DNA of 64,000 bases, from assembly GCA_016278325.1 (NCBI GenBank), contig JADQCB010000034.1:62001-126000 (forward strand), read 5' to 3'. Source of the stretch: Actibacterium sp. Lineage in GTDB: Bacteria > Pseudomonadota > Alphaproteobacteria > Rhodobacterales > Rhodobacteraceae. A program made the translations under genes and the position numbers. This document shows positions 40,432 through 63,772 of this stretch, piece by piece. Position 1 is the first letter of the stretch. Each line of letters starts with the position of its first letter. Under the pieces are notes generated by a model. That model did no database searches, was not told the origin of the DNA, and saw only the letters and a program-made list of their open reading frames with translations.

Positions 40432-40460
40432 TTGCAGACTCGGGCGGTGGGGCGTATATG
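40432..40460 (+). promoter_or_regulatory. Candidate promoter upstream of the rimP leader
   Basis: TTGCAG at 40432-40437, a 17-bp spacer, and TATATG at 40455-40460. It would start transcription near 40467, about 72 nt before the intrinsic terminator. Confidence 0.5.
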
Positions 40461-40466
40461 GCCCTC

Positions 40467-40538
40467 GATAGCGGCGGTTTGGCCTCCACCCCCAAGCCTC
40501 CTCCGGACAGGTATGACGGGCCGCGCGCCCGTTTTTTT
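40467..40538 (+). ncRNA. Putative small RNA or attenuated rimP leader with anti-Shine-Dalgarno motifs
   Basis: Between a candidate promoter and a strong terminator lie about 72 nt with no open frame worth naming. A 7-bp stem (40476-40482 with 40492-40498, one G-U pair) displays the loop CCUCCACCC at 40483-40491. A second CCUCCUCC follows at 40497-40504. Exposed CCUCC in hairpin loops is the hallmark of the CcsR/cuckoo-type small RNAs of Alphaproteobacteria. The alternative is a premature-termination leader for rimP, whose ATG is 53 nt after the terminator. Both readings are inferences. Confidence 0.4.
40516..40538 (+). terminator. Intrinsic terminator between tspO and rimP
   Basis: Stem ACGGGC (40516-40521) and GCCCGT (40527-40532) around a CGCGC loop, followed by an unbroken T-run to 40538. 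It lies upstream of rimP rather than at the end of an operon, so it could end tspO transcripts, a small RNA, or attenuate rimP. Confidence 0.8.
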
Positions 40539-40590
40539 GTGCTTGCGCACAACCTGTCACCACCCTGATGGACGTCACGATACGCAACCC

Positions 40591-41169
40591 ATGAACGATC
40601 TGATCGCCAAAGCCGCAATCGACCGGCGCCTTGCCGAGATCCTTCTGCCCGTGATCGAGGGCATGGGCTTTGAACTGGTGCGCCTGCGCTTCATGGGCGG
40701 CAAGACAAAGACTCTTCAGATCATGGCCCAGCGTCCCGACGGTGGCATCGAGGTGGATGAATGCGCCGAGATTTCCACGGCGGTGTCAGCGGTGCTGGAT
40801 GTCGAGGATCCGATCGACGAGAATTTCACGCTTGAAGTGTCCTCGCCCGGGATCGACCGCCCGCTGACCCGGCTCAAGGATTTCGAAAGCTGGGAAGGCT
40901 ACGAGGCCAAGCTTGAAACGACCGAACTGATCGACGGGCGCCGCCGGTTCAAGGGGATCCTGGCGGGCACCGAGGGCGACGAGGTGCTGATCGAGGTCGA
41001 GGAAGGCACGATAGGCCTGAAATTCGACTGGCTGAGCGACGCCAAGCTGGTTCTGACCGACGACCTGATCCGCGACATGCTGCGCGCCCGAAAGGCCGCG
41101 GGTATCGTGGACGAAGACCAGTTCGACGAAATTGAAACGGATGAAACCGACGCTTCCGAGGAGGAGTGA
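40591..41169 (+). CDS. rimP: Ribosome maturation factor RimP
   Basis: A 192-residue factor for 30S subunit assembly. The N-terminal domain carries [13 protein letters not shown] near 27 and [18 protein letters not shown] near 55, then the family mark [11 protein letters not shown] near 85. The C-terminal SH3-like half ends with an acidic tail. It opens the rimP-nusA-ylxR-infB operon; nusA starts 3 nt after its stop, with GAGGAG overlapping the end. Control may act at the leader described above. Confidence 0.95.
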
Positions 41170-41172
41170 GTA

Positions 41173-42804
41173 ATGGCGATTACCTCTGCCAACCAGCTTG
41201 AGCTGTTGCAAACCGCCGAGGCCGTGGCCCGCGAAAAGATGATCGACCCCGAGCTGGTGGTCGAGGCGATGGAGGAATCGCTCGCCCGTGCGGCCAAGTC
41301 GCGCTACGGGGCCGAGATGGACATCCGCGTGTCGATCGACCGCAAGACCGGCCGGGCGACCTTTACCCGGGTTCGCACGGTGGTGCCCGATGACGAGCTT
41401 GAGAACTATCAGGCGCAATTGACGGTAGAGCAGGCCAGGCAATACCTGGACGATCCCAAGATCGGCGACGAATTCCGCGAAGAGGTTCCGCCGGTCGAAA
41501 TGGGCCGGATCGCCGCCCAGTCGGCCAAGCAGGTGATCCTGCAGAAGGTCCGCGAGGCCGAGCGCGACCGCCAGTACGAGGAATTCAAGGATCGCGTCGG
41601 CACCATCATCAACGGTGTCGTCAAGCGCGAAGAATACGGCAATATCATCGTCGATGTCGGCCAGGGCGAGGCGATCCTGCGCCGCAACGAAAAGATCGGC
41701 CGCGAATCCTATCGCCCGAATGACCGGATCCGGTGCTATATCAAGGATGTGCGGCGCGAGGCGCGCGGCCCGCAGATCTTCCTGTCACGCACCGATCCGC
41801 AGTTCATGGCCGAGCTGTTCAAGATGGAAGTGCCCGAGATCTATGATGGCATCATCGAGATCAAGGCCGTGGCGCGCGACCCCGGGTCGCGTGCGAAGAT
41901 CGGCGTGATTTCCCATGACAGCTCGATCGACCCGGTGGGCGCCTGCGTCGGGATGCGCGGCAGCCGCGTGCAGGCCGTTGTCAACGAGCTTCAAGGCGAG
42001 AAGATCGACATCATTCCCTGGAACGAGGATCAGGCGACCTTCCTGGTGAACGCGCTGCAACCGGCCGAGGTGTCCAAGGTCGTGATCGACGAAGACGCCC
42101 AGCGGATCGAGGTCGTGGTGCCCGACGATCAACTGAGCCTTGCCATCGGACGGCGGGGCCAGAACGTGCGGCTTGCAAGCCAGCTGACCGGCCTGGACAT
42201 CGACATCATGACCGAGGCCGAGGAATCCGAGCGCCGTCAGGCCGAGTTCGCCGAGCGGACCCAATTGTTCATGGACACGCTGGACCTGGACGAATTCTTC
42301 GCCCAGCTACTTGTCTCCGAGGGGTTCAGCTCGCTCGAGGAAGTGGCTTATGTGGACCGGGATGAACTGTTGGTGATCGACGGCGTGGACGAGGACACCG
42401 CCGATGAGCTTCAGGCGCGGGCGCGCGATTACCTGGAAGAGCTGAACAAGAAGGCGCTGGATCGCGCCCGCGAGCTGGGGGTCGAGGACAGCCTGGTTGA
42501 ATTCGAAGGCCTGACACCCCAGATGATCGAGGCCCTGGCGGAAGACGGCATCAAGACGCTGGAAGATTTCGCCACTTGCGCCGACTGGGAACTGGCCGGC
42601 GGCTGGACCACGGTCGATGGCGAGCGGGTCAAGGACGAAGGCCTGCTGGAAAAATTCGATGTCTCTCTGGAAGAGGCGCAGAACCTGGTGATGACCGCGC
42701 GGGTCCAACTGGGCTGGGTGGATATCGCCGACCTGAAGACCGACGCGCCCGAGGCGGATGCCGACGCGGCGATAGAACCCGCGGAGGCCGGGGCCTCTTC
42801 GTAG
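41173..42804 (+). CDS. nusA: Transcription termination/antitermination protein NusA
   Basis: A 543-residue RNA polymerase-binding factor. The N-terminal domain (about 1-125) is followed by an S1 domain (about 135-200; [19 protein letters not shown] near its start), two KH domains (about 230-350, with [15 protein letters not shown] and [14 protein letters not shown]), and C-terminal acidic repeats from about 365 on. It modulates pausing, termination and rRNA antitermination. Both its position after rimP and the downstream ylxR-infB order are standard. Confidence 0.97.
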
Positions 42805-42820: not shown

Positions 42821-43453
42821 TTGAGCCGTGGTGGACGAAACGATCGGCCCGATGCGCCCGAGCGGCGTTGCATCGCGACCGGAGAGGTTCAGCCCAAGGC
42901 GGGGCTGATTCGATTCGTCGTGGGGCCGGATGGCGTCATCGTGCCGGACCTGCTGGGCAAGTTGCCGGGGCGCGGAATATGGGTCGCGGCCGATCGGGCG
43001 GCGCTGGAAAAGGCGATTGCCAGGCGGCTGTTCGCGCGGGCGGCGAAACAGGCCGTGACAGTGCCCGAAGACCTGTTCGACCAGGTCGAGGCGGGGCTGG
43101 CCCGCCGGGTGGTCGAGGAGATATCCTTGGCCCGGAAGGCCGGATTGGCGGTCGCGGGGTATGAAAAGGTCAAGGGCTGGCTTCTGAGCGGTGAGGCAAC
43201 CGTGCTGATCCAGGCCAGCGACGGTTCGGAACGGGGCAAGTCGAAGCTGCGGCTGCCCTCGGAGACCGAGGCGTTCATAGGCTGTCTGAGTGCCCGGGAA
43301 TTGGGTTTGGCATTCGGACGTGAACATGTGATACATGGCGCGCTTGCGGCTGGCGGACTCACGCGACGTGTAGTAGAGGATGCGGCCAAGCTTTCGGGCG
43401 TTCGCAAAATGGGCGGGGGCAAGACCCCCGGAAAGGGTACGAAATCCATATGA
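42821..43453 (+). CDS. YlxR (DUF448) domain fused to an L7Ae-like domain
   Basis: A 210-residue RNA-binding protein. Residues 1-90 form the YlxR fold (RRCIATGE near 16, [17 protein letters not shown] near 50). Residues 100-195 resemble the L7Ae/L30e fold ([17 protein letters not shown]). The tail is Lys/Gly-rich. The fused form is common in Alphaproteobacteria, whereas in Bacillus the two are separate genes between nusA and infB. A TTG at 42821 with GGGAG about 7 nt upstream is the best start. The stop overlaps the infB ATG (ATGA). Confidence 0.9.
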
Positions 43454-45942
43454 GCGATAGTGACGACAAGAAAACTCTCGGTGTGCGCGGCGGTCCGCGG
43501 TCCGGCCAGGTGAAGCAGAGCTTCAGCCACGGGCGGACCAAGAATGTCGTGGTCGAGACGAAGCGCAAGCGCGTTGTCGTTCCCAAGCCCGGCGCCGCGA
43601 AATCCGCAGGCGGCGGCAAACCGCAGGGCGGCAACCCCGCGAGGCGGCCGGCCGGCATTTCCGATTCCGAGATGGAACGCCGGTTGAAGGCGTTGCAGGC
43701 AGCCAAGGCCAACGAGGCCGAGGATGCGCGCCAGCGCGCCGAGGATGAGCGCAGGCGCGACGAGGAACGCCAGCGCCGGCGCGAAGAGATCGAGGCCAAG
43801 GAACGCGAGCAGCAGGAAATCGAAGAGGCTGCCCGCCGCAAGGCCCAGCAGGAAGAGGACGCGCGCAAGGAGGCCGAACAGGCCCGCAGCCGCGCCGCCG
43901 AGCCGCCGGCCGAATCCACCGGGCCCACGCCGCCGGTCGAAGAGCCGCGTGGCGGCGCCAAGCCGGCCCCGCGCAAGGAGCGTGAGCGCGACACCCGCGA
44001 CGACAAGCCCGCCCGCAACAAGGGCGCAGGCAAGGATAACCGCCGGTCCGGCAAATTGACCGTGAACCAGGCGCTGACCGGCGGCGAAGGCGGGCGGCAA
44101 CGCTCGATGGCCGCGATGAAGCGCAAGCAGGAACGGATGCGCCAGAAGGCGATGGGCGGCGGGCAGGATCGTGAAAAGATCGTGCGCGAGGTCCAGGTGC
44201 CCGAATCGATCCTCGTGTCGGAACTGGCCAACCGCATGGCCGAACGCTCGGCCGACGTGGTCAAGTCGCTGATGAAGATGGGCATGATGGTGACCCAGAA
44301 CCAGCCGATCGACGCCGACACCGCAGAGCTTATTGTCGAGGAATTCGGCCACAAGGTCGTGCGCGTTTCCGATGCCGACGTGGAGCAGGTGATCGACTCG
44401 GTCGAGGACAAGCCCGAGGATCTCAAGCCGCGTCCGCCGGTCATCACGATCATGGGGCATGTCGATCACGGCAAGACCTCGCTTCTGGATGCGATCCGCA
44501 ATGCCAAGGTCGTCTCGGGCGAGGCCGGCGGGATCACCCAGCATATCGGCGCCTATCAGGTGCAGACCGACAGCGGATCGACCCTGACCTTCCTCGACAC
44601 GCCCGGTCACGCGGCCTTTACCTCGATGCGTGCCCGTGGTGCGCATGTCACCGATATCGTCGTTCTGGTGGTGGCTGCCGATGACGCGGTGATGCCGCAG
44701 ACGATCGAGGCGATCAATCACGCCAAGGCGGCCAAGGTGCCGATGATCGTGGCGATCAACAAATGCGACAAACCCGATGCGAACCCGAACAAGGTGCGCA
44801 CGGACCTGTTGCAGCACGAGGTCGTGGTCGAGGCGATGTCGGGCGATGTGCAGGACATCGAGGTTTCGGCGATCACCGGCAAGGGGCTTGACGAACTTCT
44901 CGAAGCGATCGCCCTGCAATCCGAGATCCTGGAACTGAAGGCCAATCCGGACCGTGCGGCCACCGGCGCGGTGGTCGAGGCGCAGCTCGATGTCGGCCGC
45001 GGTCCCGTCGCGACCGTCCTGGTGCAGAATGGCACGCTGCGCCGCGGCGACATCTTCGTCGTGGGCGAGCAATGGGGCAAGGTTCGCGCCCTGATCAACG
45101 ACAAGGGCGAGCGCGTCGAAGAAGCCGGGCCGTCGGTTCCGGTCGAGGTTCTGGGCCTGAACGGCACACCAGAGGCCGGCGACGTTCTGAACGTGGTCGA
45201 GACCGAGGCGCAGGCCCGCGAAATCGCGGAATACCGCGAACAGGCCGCCAAGGACAAGCGCGCCGCCGCCGGTGCCGCGACGACCCTGGACCAGCTGCTG
45301 GCGAAGGCCAAGGAAGACAAGAACCTCAAGGAGCTTCCGATCCTGGTCAAGGCCGACGTTCAGGGCTCGGCCGAGGCGATCGTCCAGGCGATGGAGAAGA
45401 TCGGCAATGACGAAGTGCGCGTGCGGGTTCTGCATGCCGGGGTCGGTGCGATCACCGAAACCGATGTCGGGCTGGCCGAGGCGTCGGGCGCTCCGATCAT
45501 CGGTTTCAACGTCCGGGCCAATGCGCCGGCGCGCAATGCGGCCAATCAGAAGGGGGTCGAGATCCGCTATTACAGCGTGATCTATGATCTCGTGGACGAT
45601 GTGAAATCCGCGGCCAGCGGTCTGCTGTCGAACGAGATCCGCGAAAAGTATATCGGTTACGCCGAGATCAAGGAGGTCTTCAAGGTGTCGGGCGTGGGCA
45701 AGGTTGCCGGCTGTCTGGTGACCGAAGGGATCGCCCGCCGCTCGGCCGGTGTCCGGCTTCTGCGCGAGGACGTGGTGATCCACGAGGGCACGCTGAAGAC
45801 CCTCAAGCGGTTCAAGGATGAAGTGCCCGAGGTGCAGTCGGGCCAGGAATGCGGGATGGCCTTCGAGAACTACGAGGATATCCGCCCGGGCGACGTGATC
45901 GAGATCTTCGAGCGTGAAGAGGTCGAACGCAATCTCAGCTGA
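43450..45942 (+). CDS. infB: Translation initiation factor IF-2
   Basis: An 830-residue GTPase that delivers initiator tRNA to the 30S subunit. The N-terminal 230 residues are a charged, Arg/Glu/Ala-rich helical region. The GTPase core starts near 330 with [13 protein letters not shown] (about 336), DTPGHAAF and NKCDKP, followed by the beta-barrel and C-terminal domains ending in [12 protein letters not shown]. It is the last gene of the operon and is followed by a terminator. Confidence 0.97.
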
Positions 45943-46082: not shown

Positions 46083-46775
46083 TCACCCCAGGTATTCGCG
46101 CAGTCGGGGCGGCGGATCCGACAGCAGGGTTGCGGTGTCGCGCGGCGGATCGACCCGGCCATCGAAGACGGTGATCGCCTGATCCGCGACCGTCGCGGCA
46201 TCCCGCGGATCGTGGCTGACCAAAAGCACCGTGCCGCCGGTTTCCGATGCCAGGTCGCCCACCAATGCCAGCATCTCGGCCCGCAGCGCCGGCCCAAGTG
46301 CCGCGAACGGTTCGTCCAGCAAAAGCAGGGGCCGGCCCCGCAGCAACACGCGGGCCAGGGCCACGCGACCGCGTTGGCCGCCTGACAGTTCCGCCGGTTT
46401 GCGCCCGCCCAGCCCCGCAAGCCCGACCCGTTCCAGGCCGCGCCGGACGGCCCTCTGCGCATCATTGTCGAGCCTGAGATCGGGGCGCAATCCAAGCCCC
46501 ACATTCTGCGCGACGGTCAGGTGCGGAAACAGATTGTTGTCCTGGAAGATCAGGCTGACCGGGCGCCGGCCCGGGGGAAAGGGGGCCAGGTCCTGCCCGT
46601 TCCACAGGACGCGGCCGGCATCGGGCATCTGGAACCCGGCGATCAGGTCCAGCAGCGTCGATTTTCCCGCGCCCGAGGGGCCGATCACGGCCACCCGCGC
46701 GCCGGTCTCGATGACAAGATCGGCGGTGAGTGTGAAATCGCCCTGGCTCAGGCGCAGGCCCTCAAGTTGCAGCAT
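46083..46775 (-). CDS. thiQ: Thiamine ABC transporter ATP-binding protein
   Basis: A 230-residue ABC ATPase. Walker A is GPSGAGKST near residue 33, the signature LSGGQRGRVALAR near 128, Walker B LLLLDEPFAALG near 150, and the switch His in LLVSHDPRDA near 185. It powers uptake through ThiP. The start overlaps the thiP stop by 14 bp, and the operon lies under a TPP riboswitch, which fixes the substrate as thiamine or a phosphate ester. Confidence 0.93.
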   Translation of the reverse strand: MLQLEGLRLSQGDFTLTADLVIETGARVAVIGPSGAGKSTLLDLIAGFQMPDAGRVLWNGQDLAPFPPGRRPVSLIFQDNNLFPHLTVAQNVGLGLRPDLRLDNDAQRAVRRGLERVGLAGLGGRKPAELSGGQRGRVALARVLLRGRPLLLLDEPFAALGPALRAEMLALVGDLASETGGTVLLVSHDPRDAATVADQAITVFDGRVDPPRDTATLLSDPPPRLREYLG

Positions 46776-48336
46776 TTCCGCGCCCCCCGCGATCGAAGAT
46801 CCAGAACAGCAGCAGGCTGAGCGTCAGAAGCAACAGTGCCGCGCCTGCGGCCTCATCCATTCGGTAGGCCGCCATCAGGCGGTAAAGTTGCAGCGGCAAG
46901 GTGGCCTGCGTCGGGTCGGCGAAAAGCGCGATCACCCCCAGATCCCCCATGCTGAGCGCGGCCGCCAGCCCGGTGGCAAAACCGATGGGCCGCCGCAGGC
47001 GGGGCAGCACCAGAAATCGCAGCCGCGCCCACCCGGTCATGCCCAGGCTGTCGGCAAGGCGCCCATGCGCCGCTTCGGTCTCGCGCAGGGCGGGAACAAG
47101 GGCGCGCATCGCGAAGGGAAGGCTCATCACCGCGTTGACCAGGGCCGTGACCGGCAGGGCCAGGACAACGGGGTCGGTGACGGGGAAGAGCAGGATGAAA
47201 AGACCGGTGCCGATGACCAGCGGCGAGGCGGCGATGGACAGCGCGCCGGTGACTTCCAGCGCGGCGCCGGCGGGGTGTCGTCCCAGCCGGACGGTGGCAA
47301 TCGCCAGCGGCAGCGCCAGAAGCAGCATCAGGGCCGCCGACCCCAACGCCACCAGGAAAGAGCGCAAGGCGGCCATCAGGACACTTGCCGGCAGTTGCCC
47401 GATCGTGGGCAGGCCGCTTGCGACAACCATCGCCAGCGGCACGATCAGGAACAGCGCGGCCAGCACGATCCACGCGGTGTCGGCCACGCGCGCCAAGGGA
47501 TTGCCCGCGTCCCAGCGTTGCGGCACCCGGTCCAGCCCGGCGCCGCCGAATGCCGGCAGCGCAACCCAGGCCGCAAGGCCCGCGGCCAGTGCCGACAGGG
47601 CGAACTGGACAAGCGACAGGAGCGCCGCGCGGCCAAGGTCGAATTCGAAGCGGAACGCCTGATAGATCGCCAGTTCGATCGTGGTCGCGCCCGGCCCGCC
47701 GCCCAGCGTCAGCGCCACGGCAAAGCTTGTAAGGCAGACCACGAAGATCACCACGATCGCGCCAGGCAGGACGGTGCGCAGCATCGGCCGTTCCAGCCAG
47801 CGGTTGACGTCGCGTGTCGTGAAACCCAGCGACGCGGCAAGCCGGAACCGTTCGGCCGGGATCGACTGCCAGCCCTGGAGGATCAGGCGCGTCGCCAGGG
47901 GAAGGTTGAAGAACACATGCGCCAGCACCACCCCCTGAAGCCCGTAGATCGACGGCGGGGCGATCCCCAGCACCTGAAGCCCCTGATTGAACAGCCCGTT
48001 GCGCCCGAAGACGGCCAGCAGGCCCAGGATGGCGACGATGACCGGCAGGATGAACGGGGCGCCGAGCAGCGTGATCAGCCAGCCGCGCCCGCGAAAGGCG
48101 CGCCGGGCCAGCGCGCGCGCCACCGGGATCGCCAACAGCACGCTCAGCACCGCCGAGAGCGTGGCCTGCACCAGGGTGAAGCGCAGCGCTGCCCAGTCGC
48201 CGGGGCCGAAAGCCGCCGCGTCTTCGGCCCGCGCGAACACGGCGCCGAGCGTGCCCAGCGTCAGCCCCAGCACCAGGATGGCGACGGCCATCCCGGCCCA
48301 GGTGCCGGGGCCTAGCGGCTGAGCGCGCTGCGCCAT
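46762..48336 (-). CDS. thiP: Thiamine ABC transporter permease
   Basis: A 524-residue permease made of two fused binding-protein-dependent transport domains with about twelve membrane helices. Each half has an EAA-type loop: ERFRLAASLGFTTRDVNRWLE near 180, and AHGRLADSLGMTGWARLRFLV near 430 (both quoted in part). It forms the inner-membrane channel for thiamine or thiamine phosphates. The gene overlaps thiB upstream by 25 bp and thiQ downstream by 14 bp. Confidence 0.92.
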   Translation of the reverse strand: MAQRAQPLGPGTWAGMAVAILVLGLTLGTLGAVFARAEDAAAFGPGDWAALRFTLVQATLSAVLSVLLAIPVARALARRAFRGRGWLITLLGAPFILPVIVAILGLLAVFGRNGLFNQGLQVLGIAPPSIYGLQGVVLAHVFFNLPLATRLILQGWQSIPAERFRLAASLGFTTRDVNRWLERPMLRTVLPGAIVVIFVVCLTSFAVALTLGGGPGATTIELAIYQAFRFEFDLGRAALLSLVQFALSALAAGLAAWVALPAFGGAGLDRVPQRWDAGNPLARVADTAWIVLAALFLIVPLAMVVASGLPTIGQLPASVLMAALRSFLVALGSAALMLLLALPLAIATVRLGRHPAGAALEVTGALSIAASPLVIGTGLFILLFPVTDPVVLALPVTALVNAVMSLPFAMRALVPALRETEAAHGRLADSLGMTGWARLRFLVLPRLRRPIGFATGLAAALSMGDLGVIALFADPTQATLPLQLYRLMAAYRMDEAAGAALLLLTLSLLLFWIFDRGGRGNAAT

Positions 48337-49304: not shown

Positions 49305-49349
49305 GGTCATCCTCCATTCACGGGCGGTCAGGGGCAGGGATGGAGAATG

Positions 49350-49440
49350 TCCAGCAACCTTCCCTCCGCCGGTTCTAGCCGGTTCAGGTTCAACGGGTTC
49401 GCAATCTGCGTCTCAGCCCTGGTCGGGCACCCCGAGGTAT
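49350..49440 (-). promoter_or_regulatory. TPP riboswitch (THI element)
   Basis: On the minus strand the conserved THI-box blocks appear in order: CTCGGGGTGCCC (49435-49424), GGGCTGAGA, ACCCGTTGAACCTGA, the variable stem CCGG-CTAGAA-CCGG, and GGAGGGAAG near 49360. These form the pyrimidine- and pyrophosphate-sensing arms of the thiamine-pyrophosphate aptamer. The short spacing (about 45 nt) to the thiB start and the lack of a T-run terminator suggest translational control by hiding the GGAGG. Confidence 0.92.
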
Positions 49441-49442
49441 GG

Positions 49443-49461
49443 GCAACGTAATTCACGTTGC
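49443..49461. repeat. Perfect inverted repeat upstream of the TPP riboswitch
   Basis: GCAACGT (49443-49449), AATTC, ACGTTGC (49455-49461): 7-bp arms with a 5-nt spacer, immediately upstream of the riboswitch on the minus strand and about 110 nt before the SulP gene on the plus strand. It could be an operator for either unit. Confidence 0.45.
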
Positions 49462-53980: not shown

Positions 53981-53990
53981 GCACCCTCCG

Positions 53991-54025
53991 GTAAAATAAA
54001 AGGGCCGCCTGGCAGCAGGCGGCCC
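53991..54025 (-). terminator. Intrinsic terminator after the HU gene
   Basis: Reading the minus strand, GGGCCGCCT (54025-54017), a 6-nt loop and AGGCGGCCC (54010-54002) form a 9-bp perfect stem, followed by TTTTATTTTAC. It lies 40 nt after the HU stop. Only about 10 nt separate its U-tract from the EamA start codon region. Confidence 0.85.
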
Positions 54026-54065
54026 CGGTCCTGGCTGAAAACGTCCCCCGCGGGGTCGTTTCCGA

Positions 54066-62947: not shown

Positions 62948-63772
62948 TCAGCGCCCGGCGTCCCAGCTGGCCGAGACATGCTTGCGCGTGTAGAATTCGG
63001 CCATCAGCCCGATCATCAGCAGGCACAGCGAAACGTAAAGCGGATAGGTGGTCGAGGTGAAATGCGGGTTGTAGTTTATGAAGGCAAACCCACGCGCCTG
63101 GTCGATCTCGTGGAACAGCGGGTTCCAGTCGAACATTGCCAGCATGTAGGCCGGCAACGTGTTGGCCAGGAACATCTTGCCCGAGGCGATCATGTTCGCG
63201 CGCTGATAGACCGTGGATATGATCCGCACCGCCTCGGGCGCCCATGGCTTGGCCGCCAGCAGGATCATCCCGATGGATACGCCGGTGAACCAGGCCAGAA
63301 GCAACATGCCCATGGCACCGACGGGATCGTAGATGGTGATCCGGTTGAACGCGGCGTGGTAGACATACAGGACCACCGCCATCGACAGGATCTGGATATA
63401 GAGTGCGCTGAGCGCCGAGGCCGAGATCGAGACGACGGTGTTCATCGGGGCGTGTTTCATCATCGGCGAGGCCGGCCCGTCCGACCCGACGACGGCGCCG
63501 ATCGCCTTGTTATGGGTCAGGAACAGGAAAATGCCGGACATGATGTAAAGCAGGAAATCGCCGCGCACCGCGTTCGTGCGCAGGCCCAGGACGGTGAACA
63601 TGACATAGAAGGCCCCCACGAACAGCACGGTCTGAAGGATGTTCAGAACCAGGCCCAGCAGCGCATGCCGATGCCGTTTGCGTATGTCGCGCACTGCGGA
63701 ATGGAATATGAGCATGGCCAGGTCGAAGCCACCGGCCAGCATGCCCTTCCGTTTATGCCCCGTTTCGAACAT
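62948..63772 (-). CDS. ABC-2 type transporter permease (KpsM/Wzm-like)
   Basis: A 274-residue inner-membrane permease with about six hydrophobic helices. The pattern of a short cytoplasmic N-terminus, a helix at about 40-60 (GLVLNILQTVLFVGAFYV, in part), an LYVYHAAFN loop and the NPLFHEIDQARGFAF segment near 220 fits the polysaccharide-export branch (KpsM). It would need an ATPase partner, not in this window. I chose the ATG at 63772; an in-frame ATG at 63838 would add 22 residues. Capsule or lipopolysaccharide export is likely. Confidence 0.82.
   Translation of the reverse strand: MFETGHKRKGMLAGGFDLAMLIFHSAVRDIRKRHRHALLGLVLNILQTVLFVGAFYVMFTVLGLRTNAVRGDFLLYIMSGIFLFLTHNKAIGAVVGSDGPASPMMKHAPMNTVVSISASALSALYIQILSMAVVLYVYHAAFNRITIYDPVGAMGMLLLAWFTGVSIGMILLAAKPWAPEAVRIISTVYQRANMIASGKMFLANTLPAYMLAMFDWNPLFHEIDQARGFAFINYNPHFTSTTYPLYVSLCLLMIGLMAEFYTRKHVSASWDAGR

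Follow-up and report, generated by a model that had tools for sequence, protein, structure and literature searches.

A conserved leader upstream of rimP in Rhodobacteraceae, probably a family-specific transcription attenuator of the rimP-nusA-ylxR-infB operon

The locus upstream of rimP

The 64,000-nucleotide stretch analysed in this work (the window) contains, between tspO and rimP, a compact unit in which a promoter-like sequence is followed by a hairpin and an intrinsic terminator. The unit ends 52 nt before rimP, the first gene of an operon that continues with nusA, a gene for a YlxR/RnpM-type RNA-binding protein and infB (Table 1). The GGGC..GCCC core of the terminator is GGGCCGCGCGCCC (40518-40530), and the second CCUCC of the window is a variant of CUCCACCGG. 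In the predicted fold of the window leader, G40473-G40474 are additionally paired with C40500-C40501.

Table 1. Features of the rimP leader and of the downstream operon (positions in the window)
Feature	Position	Strand	Remarks
-35 element TTGCAG	40432-40437	+	read from sequence; TTGn conserved in family leaders
-10 element TATATG	40455-40460	+	17 nt after the -35 element
5' motif CGATAGCGG	40466-40474	+	family consensus CAACAGCGG; expected at transcript 5' end, start site inferred from promoter
Hairpin, 7 bp	40476-40498	+	covariation across the family
Hairpin 5' arm GGTTTGG	40476-40482	+	
Hairpin loop CCTCCACCC	40483-40491	+	contains CCUCCACCC
Hairpin 3' arm CCAAGCC	40492-40498	+	
CCTCCTCC	40497-40504	+	includes the second CCUCC, CCUCCUCC
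3' flank TCCTCCGGA	40499-40507	+	variant of family motif UCCACCGGA
Intrinsic terminator GACGGGC-CGCGC-GCCCGTT	40515-40533	+	read from sequence and terminator scan
CCGC at terminator loop	40521-40524	+	proposed partner of GCGG at 40471-40474
T-run, seven T	40532-40538	+	
rimP	40591-41169	+	NF000932, 277.6 bits; ATG at 40591
nusA	41173-42804	+	TIGR01953, 427.7 bits
YlxR/RnpM-type RNA-binding protein gene	42821-43453	+	NF006622, 258.8 bits
infB (IF-2)	43450-45942	+	TIGR00487, 808.3 bits

An ATG inside the leader, at 40513, is in frame with rimP, and the stretch 40513-40590 (+) is open into rimP without a stop codon. Because an ATG was found at this place in only 5 of the 141 leaders fetched from the family, the start of rimP is most likely at 40591. 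A leader peptide was rejected on the basis of start-codon counts, as no conserved upstream frame was apparent across 206 leaders (ATG upstream in 57, GTG in 50, TTG in 48).

Taken alone, the window gave nothing beyond chance, because a sigma-70 scan returned 0 promoters, a terminator scan found 2 terminators versus 1.5 expected, and the fold of the leader (z = -0.21) was no better than that of shuffled sequences. The last result counts against reading the leader as an attenuator. The element is considered real because of comparison with relatives, which revealed a family-wide terminator and promoter and a covarying hairpin.

Elsewhere in the window, Rfam Cis2_sRNA (Ruegeria cis2 sRNA) was matched above its gathering score (63056-63205, +; 92.2 bits). 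A TPP riboswitch (49344-49444, -; 68.8 bits) is located upstream of same-strand ORFs (46083-48336, -), which by eye resemble parts of a thiamine-type ABC transporter.

Conservation in the family and in the class

The family was sampled with 149 Rhodobacteraceae genomes, one per genus. RimP was matched in 142 of these and in 7 it was not; leaders were fetched for 141, the omitted one having rimP at a contig end. A second set of 80 named loci, overlapping with the first, was fetched with the RimP of the window, and the RimP of the closest named locus was that of an Actibacterium MAG (96% identity).

A single GGGC-arm terminator with a T-run was detected upstream of rimP in 138 of the 141 leaders by one regular expression, and the remaining three were placed by hand. 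The same expression found the terminator in 79 of the 80 named loci, and the last one was recognized by eye. (Leader L269 is absent from the 218-row set, which holds 205 or 206 unique leaders, because its terminator failed the expression.) A TTGn/TAnnnn promoter with a 16-19 nt spacer stands before the 5' motif in 202 of 204 unique leaders, the spacer being exactly 17 nt in 201. The distance from the end of the -10 element to the C of CAACAG, with which the 5' motif starts, was 5 or 6 bases in 194 of the 202, and the transcript should therefore begin within the 5' motif.

Alignment A1 comprised 138 sequences. Three leaders were left out: L038, which contains a run of N, and L148 and L149, which have the terminator and lack the 5' motif. 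The consensus was TATATGCC..TCAACAGCGGCGCGTCGGG.TCCA..CCCGA.GC.CCACCGGA.AA...C.ACGGGCCGCGCGCCCGTTTTTTT, with the AnAGCGG positions at least 90% conserved. Exact AnAGCGG was present in 124 of the 141 fetched leaders and CCACCG in 178 of 206 unique leaders. The predicted terminated RNA, reckoned from the 5' motif to the end of the T-run, measured 66-73 nt (5th-95th percentile, 206 leaders). For the window the prediction is 72 nt, in agreement with the transcript of about 72 nt anticipated in the initial annotation, whose promoter, 7-bp hairpin and terminator before rimP were likewise confirmed by their coordinates and by conservation in the family.

The distance between the end of the T-run and the rimP start was 12-94 nt in 79 named loci, with a median of 21 nt, and exceeded 40 nt in 9 of them. 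In most species this leaves little room for another promoter, and rimP should thus be reached by read-through, as in an attenuator. A pattern count of at least 291 of 394 family genomes was not specific, since reversed controls matched too.

A covariance model (R1) found one strong copy in the source genome (86.2 bits, the next match scoring 20.8). Across 289 genomes of the class, 14 matched at E 0.01. The four strong matches (at least 71 bits) belonged to members of the family and all stood before rimP; in the ten genomes with weak matches (11 matches, at most 27.4 bits) no RimP was found by tblastn within roughly 2-3 kb. In a RimP family search of the class, RimP was found in 53 of 57 genomes, and the best 29 of the 53 leaders, one of them from Rhodobacteraceae, were inspected. 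A GGGC..GCC[CT] terminator was present upstream of rimP in 18 of the 29 by regular expression and in several more by eye. The CAACAGCGG-hairpin-CCACCG block was present only in the family member among these 29 leaders and was not found in the 28 other alphaproteobacterial families. Since the terminator is widespread and the block confined to the family, the terminator appears to be general and the 5' domain Rhodobacteraceae-specific within the families inspected. By eye, a terminator of the GTGGGC..GCCCAC type was seen before rimP in many alphaproteobacteria outside the family (L168-L197), and it is possible that this rimP-leader terminator is a class-wide motif.

The hairpin and the complementarity between 5' end and terminator loop

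The structure was tested on 28 of the 138 aligned sequences, picked for equal hairpin size. In the whole structure 92.0% of cells were paired versus 86.9% (sd 0.9) after shuffling, and covariation was 0.224 versus 0.132 (sd 0.014); neither value was reached in 500 shuffles, and slid versions of the structure paired in 26-50%. Changes on both sides were observed in four of the seven hairpin pairs. In these 28 sequences the number of double-change pairs (5 vs 3.3; 43/500) and of further pair types (12 vs 10.8; 114/500) did not go beyond the shuffles. Hairpin segments had a mean fold z of -1.94 relative to dinucleotide shuffles (189 segments). RNAalifold, applied to a MAFFT alignment, returned four pairs only, between the region of the 5' motif and the terminator.

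The loop motif CCUCC, for which the initial annotation had looked to conservation upstream of rimP in relatives, was limited to 25 of 204 loops; UCC occurred in 127. UCCA was missing from 57 of the 204 hairpin segments (including a few parse failures), and some UCCA-less segments carry UUCG, GGAA or GAGA loops, i.e. UUCG or GNRA-type tetraloops. The loop sequence is thus free to vary, which removes an anti-Shine-Dalgarno loop as a shared function. The loop GUCCAAACC may resemble a tRNA T-arm. Pairing of the loop with the rimP ribosome site was rejected (-3.246 vs -3.301, sd 0.094, for shuffled sequences; a value this good was reached in 148 of 200 shuffles).

The 5' GCGG and the CCGC of the terminator loop are complementary. 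Both were present together in 184 of 205 unique leaders, GCGG without CCGC in 12, CCGC without GCGG in 3 and neither in 6 (Fisher p = 1.4e-5; neither the Fisher test nor the shuffle tests take phylogeny into account). CCUCU accompanies AGAGG in L023/L249 (same organism), L269, L275, L282 and L283. The latter two leaders were picked up when 394 genomes of the family were scanned for the pattern, and the position of both before rimP was confirmed. This AGAGG scan could see only CCGC or CCUC loops and misses leaders like L023; among its matches, about 100 in number and classified by eye, there was no element-like one in which AGAGG was combined with CCGC. In a RimP tree of 82 rows L269, L282 and L283 cluster, with L249 and L275 apart, and AGAGG needs three changes, two of which are forced by starred branches (bootstrap not settled).

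Over the whole alignment A1 the five pairs were formed in 83.9% of cells versus 82.8% (sd 0.3) in shuffled data, and double changes occurred at three pairs versus 1.2 (1/500). The duplex energy, -7.54 versus -7.33 (sd 0.06; 0/300), represents a small gain. The covariation of a slid control (+2), 0.048, exceeded the 0.040 of the actual pairing and was counted against it, and L054, L058, L110 and L119 fit the pairing poorly; the 12 leaders without CCGC, among 196 with GCGG, likewise speak against it. It could also be that the CCGC beside GGG is conserved for the terminator itself, not for pairing. The joint changes of GCGG to GAGG and of CCGC to CCUC suggested that the 5' end of the RNA pairs with the terminator loop, and on the sequence evidence we lean towards base-pairing between 5' GCGG and terminator-loop CCGC. 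Such pairing would disrupt the last pair of the terminator stem while the base of the stem stayed intact, so a pseudoknot on a working terminator would be likelier than a classical antiterminator.

Interpretation and comparison with known systems

Comparison established, at the level of sequence, a family-wide conserved promoter, terminator and hairpin, their spacing, and the complementarity between 5' end and terminator. The best explanation of the element appears to be a Rhodobacteraceae-specific version of a transcription attenuator that serves the rimP-nusA-ylxR-infB operon; we put the probability of this reading at roughly 0.78. RNA polymerase would initiate at the conserved promoter and produce a leader of about 71 nt, with AnAGCGG first, then the hairpin, CCACCGGA and the rimP-leader terminator. 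Some transcripts would stop at the terminator, and read-through would supply the operon. By analogy with B. subtilis, the likeliest control would be that NusA stimulates termination in its own leader, which would amount to negative feedback. The 5' GCGG probably pairs with the terminator-loop CCGC; the 5' end could then modulate or lock the terminator and also protect the short RNA once it is released. The family-specific 5' domain may have a tuning or sensing function. For rimP leaders of Rhodobacteraceae the literature yielded neither transcript or 3'-end data nor data on NusA, and among the matches listed there was no paper on the Rhodobacter rimP leader. The initial annotation had left the choice between an attenuated rimP leader and a cuckoo-type sRNA. 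The former is well supported by the conserved promoter and terminator, the close spacing to rimP and the agreement with the published rimP-leader.

Cuckoo/CcsR (suhB) RNAs possess an anti-Shine-Dalgarno CCUCC loop, and the other half of that choice would make the element an RNA of this type, binding Shine-Dalgarno sequences through exposed CCUCC loops. The rimP leader shares a hairpin, a C-rich stretch and a terminator with these RNAs and with SorX, the loop of the window leader contains CCUCCACCC, with CCUCCUCC next to the loop, and the SorX model RF02784 matched the locus at 12.8 bits (E 1.5), below its threshold of 46.6 bits. However, the reading fails because the CCUCC loop is not conserved in rimP leaders and is replaced by a tetraloop in some; moreover, the suhB model RF00519 did not match at the locus, the element is single copy in the genome, and the complementarity of the loop to the rimP ribosome site was not beyond shuffles. 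We rejected this possibility as scarcely credible. A passage in PMC10253847 associates cuckoo/CcsR RNAs with a DUF1127 gene; among the immediate neighbours, to which the check was confined and which are tspO and rimP, there is no such gene. It is very improbable that the element is a plain terminator of an upstream transcript next to a chance promoter and devoid of regulatory meaning: the chance-level scans of the window agree with this, but the conservation throughout the family, the fixed promoter spacing and the covariation argue against it.

The terminated leader might also serve mainly as an sRNA that acts in trans and has a promoter of its own, rimP read-through being secondary, as reported for UpsM, the precedent from the same family (described in part of PMC5089854). 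Its own promoter and terminator, the narrow range of predicted lengths and the conserved CCACCGGA outside the stems are consistent with such a role. We consider it unlikely, as every strong model match stands before rimP, the element is single copy, the hairpin loop varies freely, nothing points to a target, and the terminator fits the general rimP-leader, which was proposed to be cis-acting (in the relevant passages of PMC2965389).

In the source genome L278 (C4:22261-22330) and L280 (C11:61093-61172) were matched by the suhB model below its threshold (27.5 and 23.9 bits) and carry CCUCCCUGU followed by a terminator. These two loci are better candidates for anti-Shine-Dalgarno RNAs than the rimP leader. 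Another sub-threshold suhB match (25.9 bits) in the window (53987-54063, -) is without CCUCC and resembles an ordinary intergenic terminator.

The attenuator could, more speculatively, represent a new structured class. The nascent RNA would fold its 5' end onto the loop of the intrinsic terminator as a pseudoknot, a bound protein would set the level of read-through, and the 71-nt product would build up as an sRNA. We regard this extension as doubtful at present. The protein, bound at the 5' motif, the hairpin and CCACCG, would be NusA, RimP, IF-2 or a ribosomal protein. The genes rimP, nusA and infB connect ribosome assembly, transcription termination and the start of translation. The leader is conserved and foldable throughout the family, and its compensatory changes point to a specific contact of the 5' end with the terminator; they narrow the question of what reads the rimP leader to a few mutations and proteins. 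Rfam 15, searched at gathering score, recognized nothing at the locus nor in 20 relatives; an alignment of this leader family is now available.

The closest known system is the rimP-leader. In the pertinent passages Naville and Gautheret (2010, PMC2965389) described an intrinsic terminator with a GGGc(...)gCCC stem before rimP-nusA-infB, proposed it to be cis-acting and suggested broadly that control was by feedback termination. The leader of the window resembles it in having a leader terminator with a GGGc(...)gCCC stem near the rimP start, and its distance of 52 nt is within the range of 4-130 nt used there, as are the 12-94 nt (median 21) of the 79 named loci. For the general form those passages reported no larger conserved element, and a tandem terminator in some Gammaproteobacteria, whereas in the Rhodobacteraceae leader the terminator follows a conserved 5' motif, a hairpin and CCACCG and has a loop complementary to the 5' end. 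Rfam RF01770 (rimP; threshold 47 bits) concerns the same gene, but its model did not match the source genome even at E 10.

In B. subtilis NusA is autoregulated through NusA-stimulated termination in its leader, according to a passage of a 2025 review (PMC12288461). There, too, attenuation controls NusA; a 5' domain is not mentioned in the passage. UpsM of Rhodobacter sphaeroides, as presented in part of PMC5089854, is an sRNA generated by termination in the mraZ leader. Read-through occurs about once per 100 there, and a separate start site is absent. UpsM is similar to the rimP leader in belonging to Rhodobacteraceae, in its own promoter and terminator, and in the operon read-through and sRNA by-product that are predicted for the rimP leader, but it precedes a different operon and has 268 nt versus about 125 nt for the rimP leader. 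With this precedent in the same family, a by-product sRNA from the rimP leader is plausible. Judged from sequence, the family-wide leader reads as a known kind of element, a rimP-leader attenuator, in a new structured variant.
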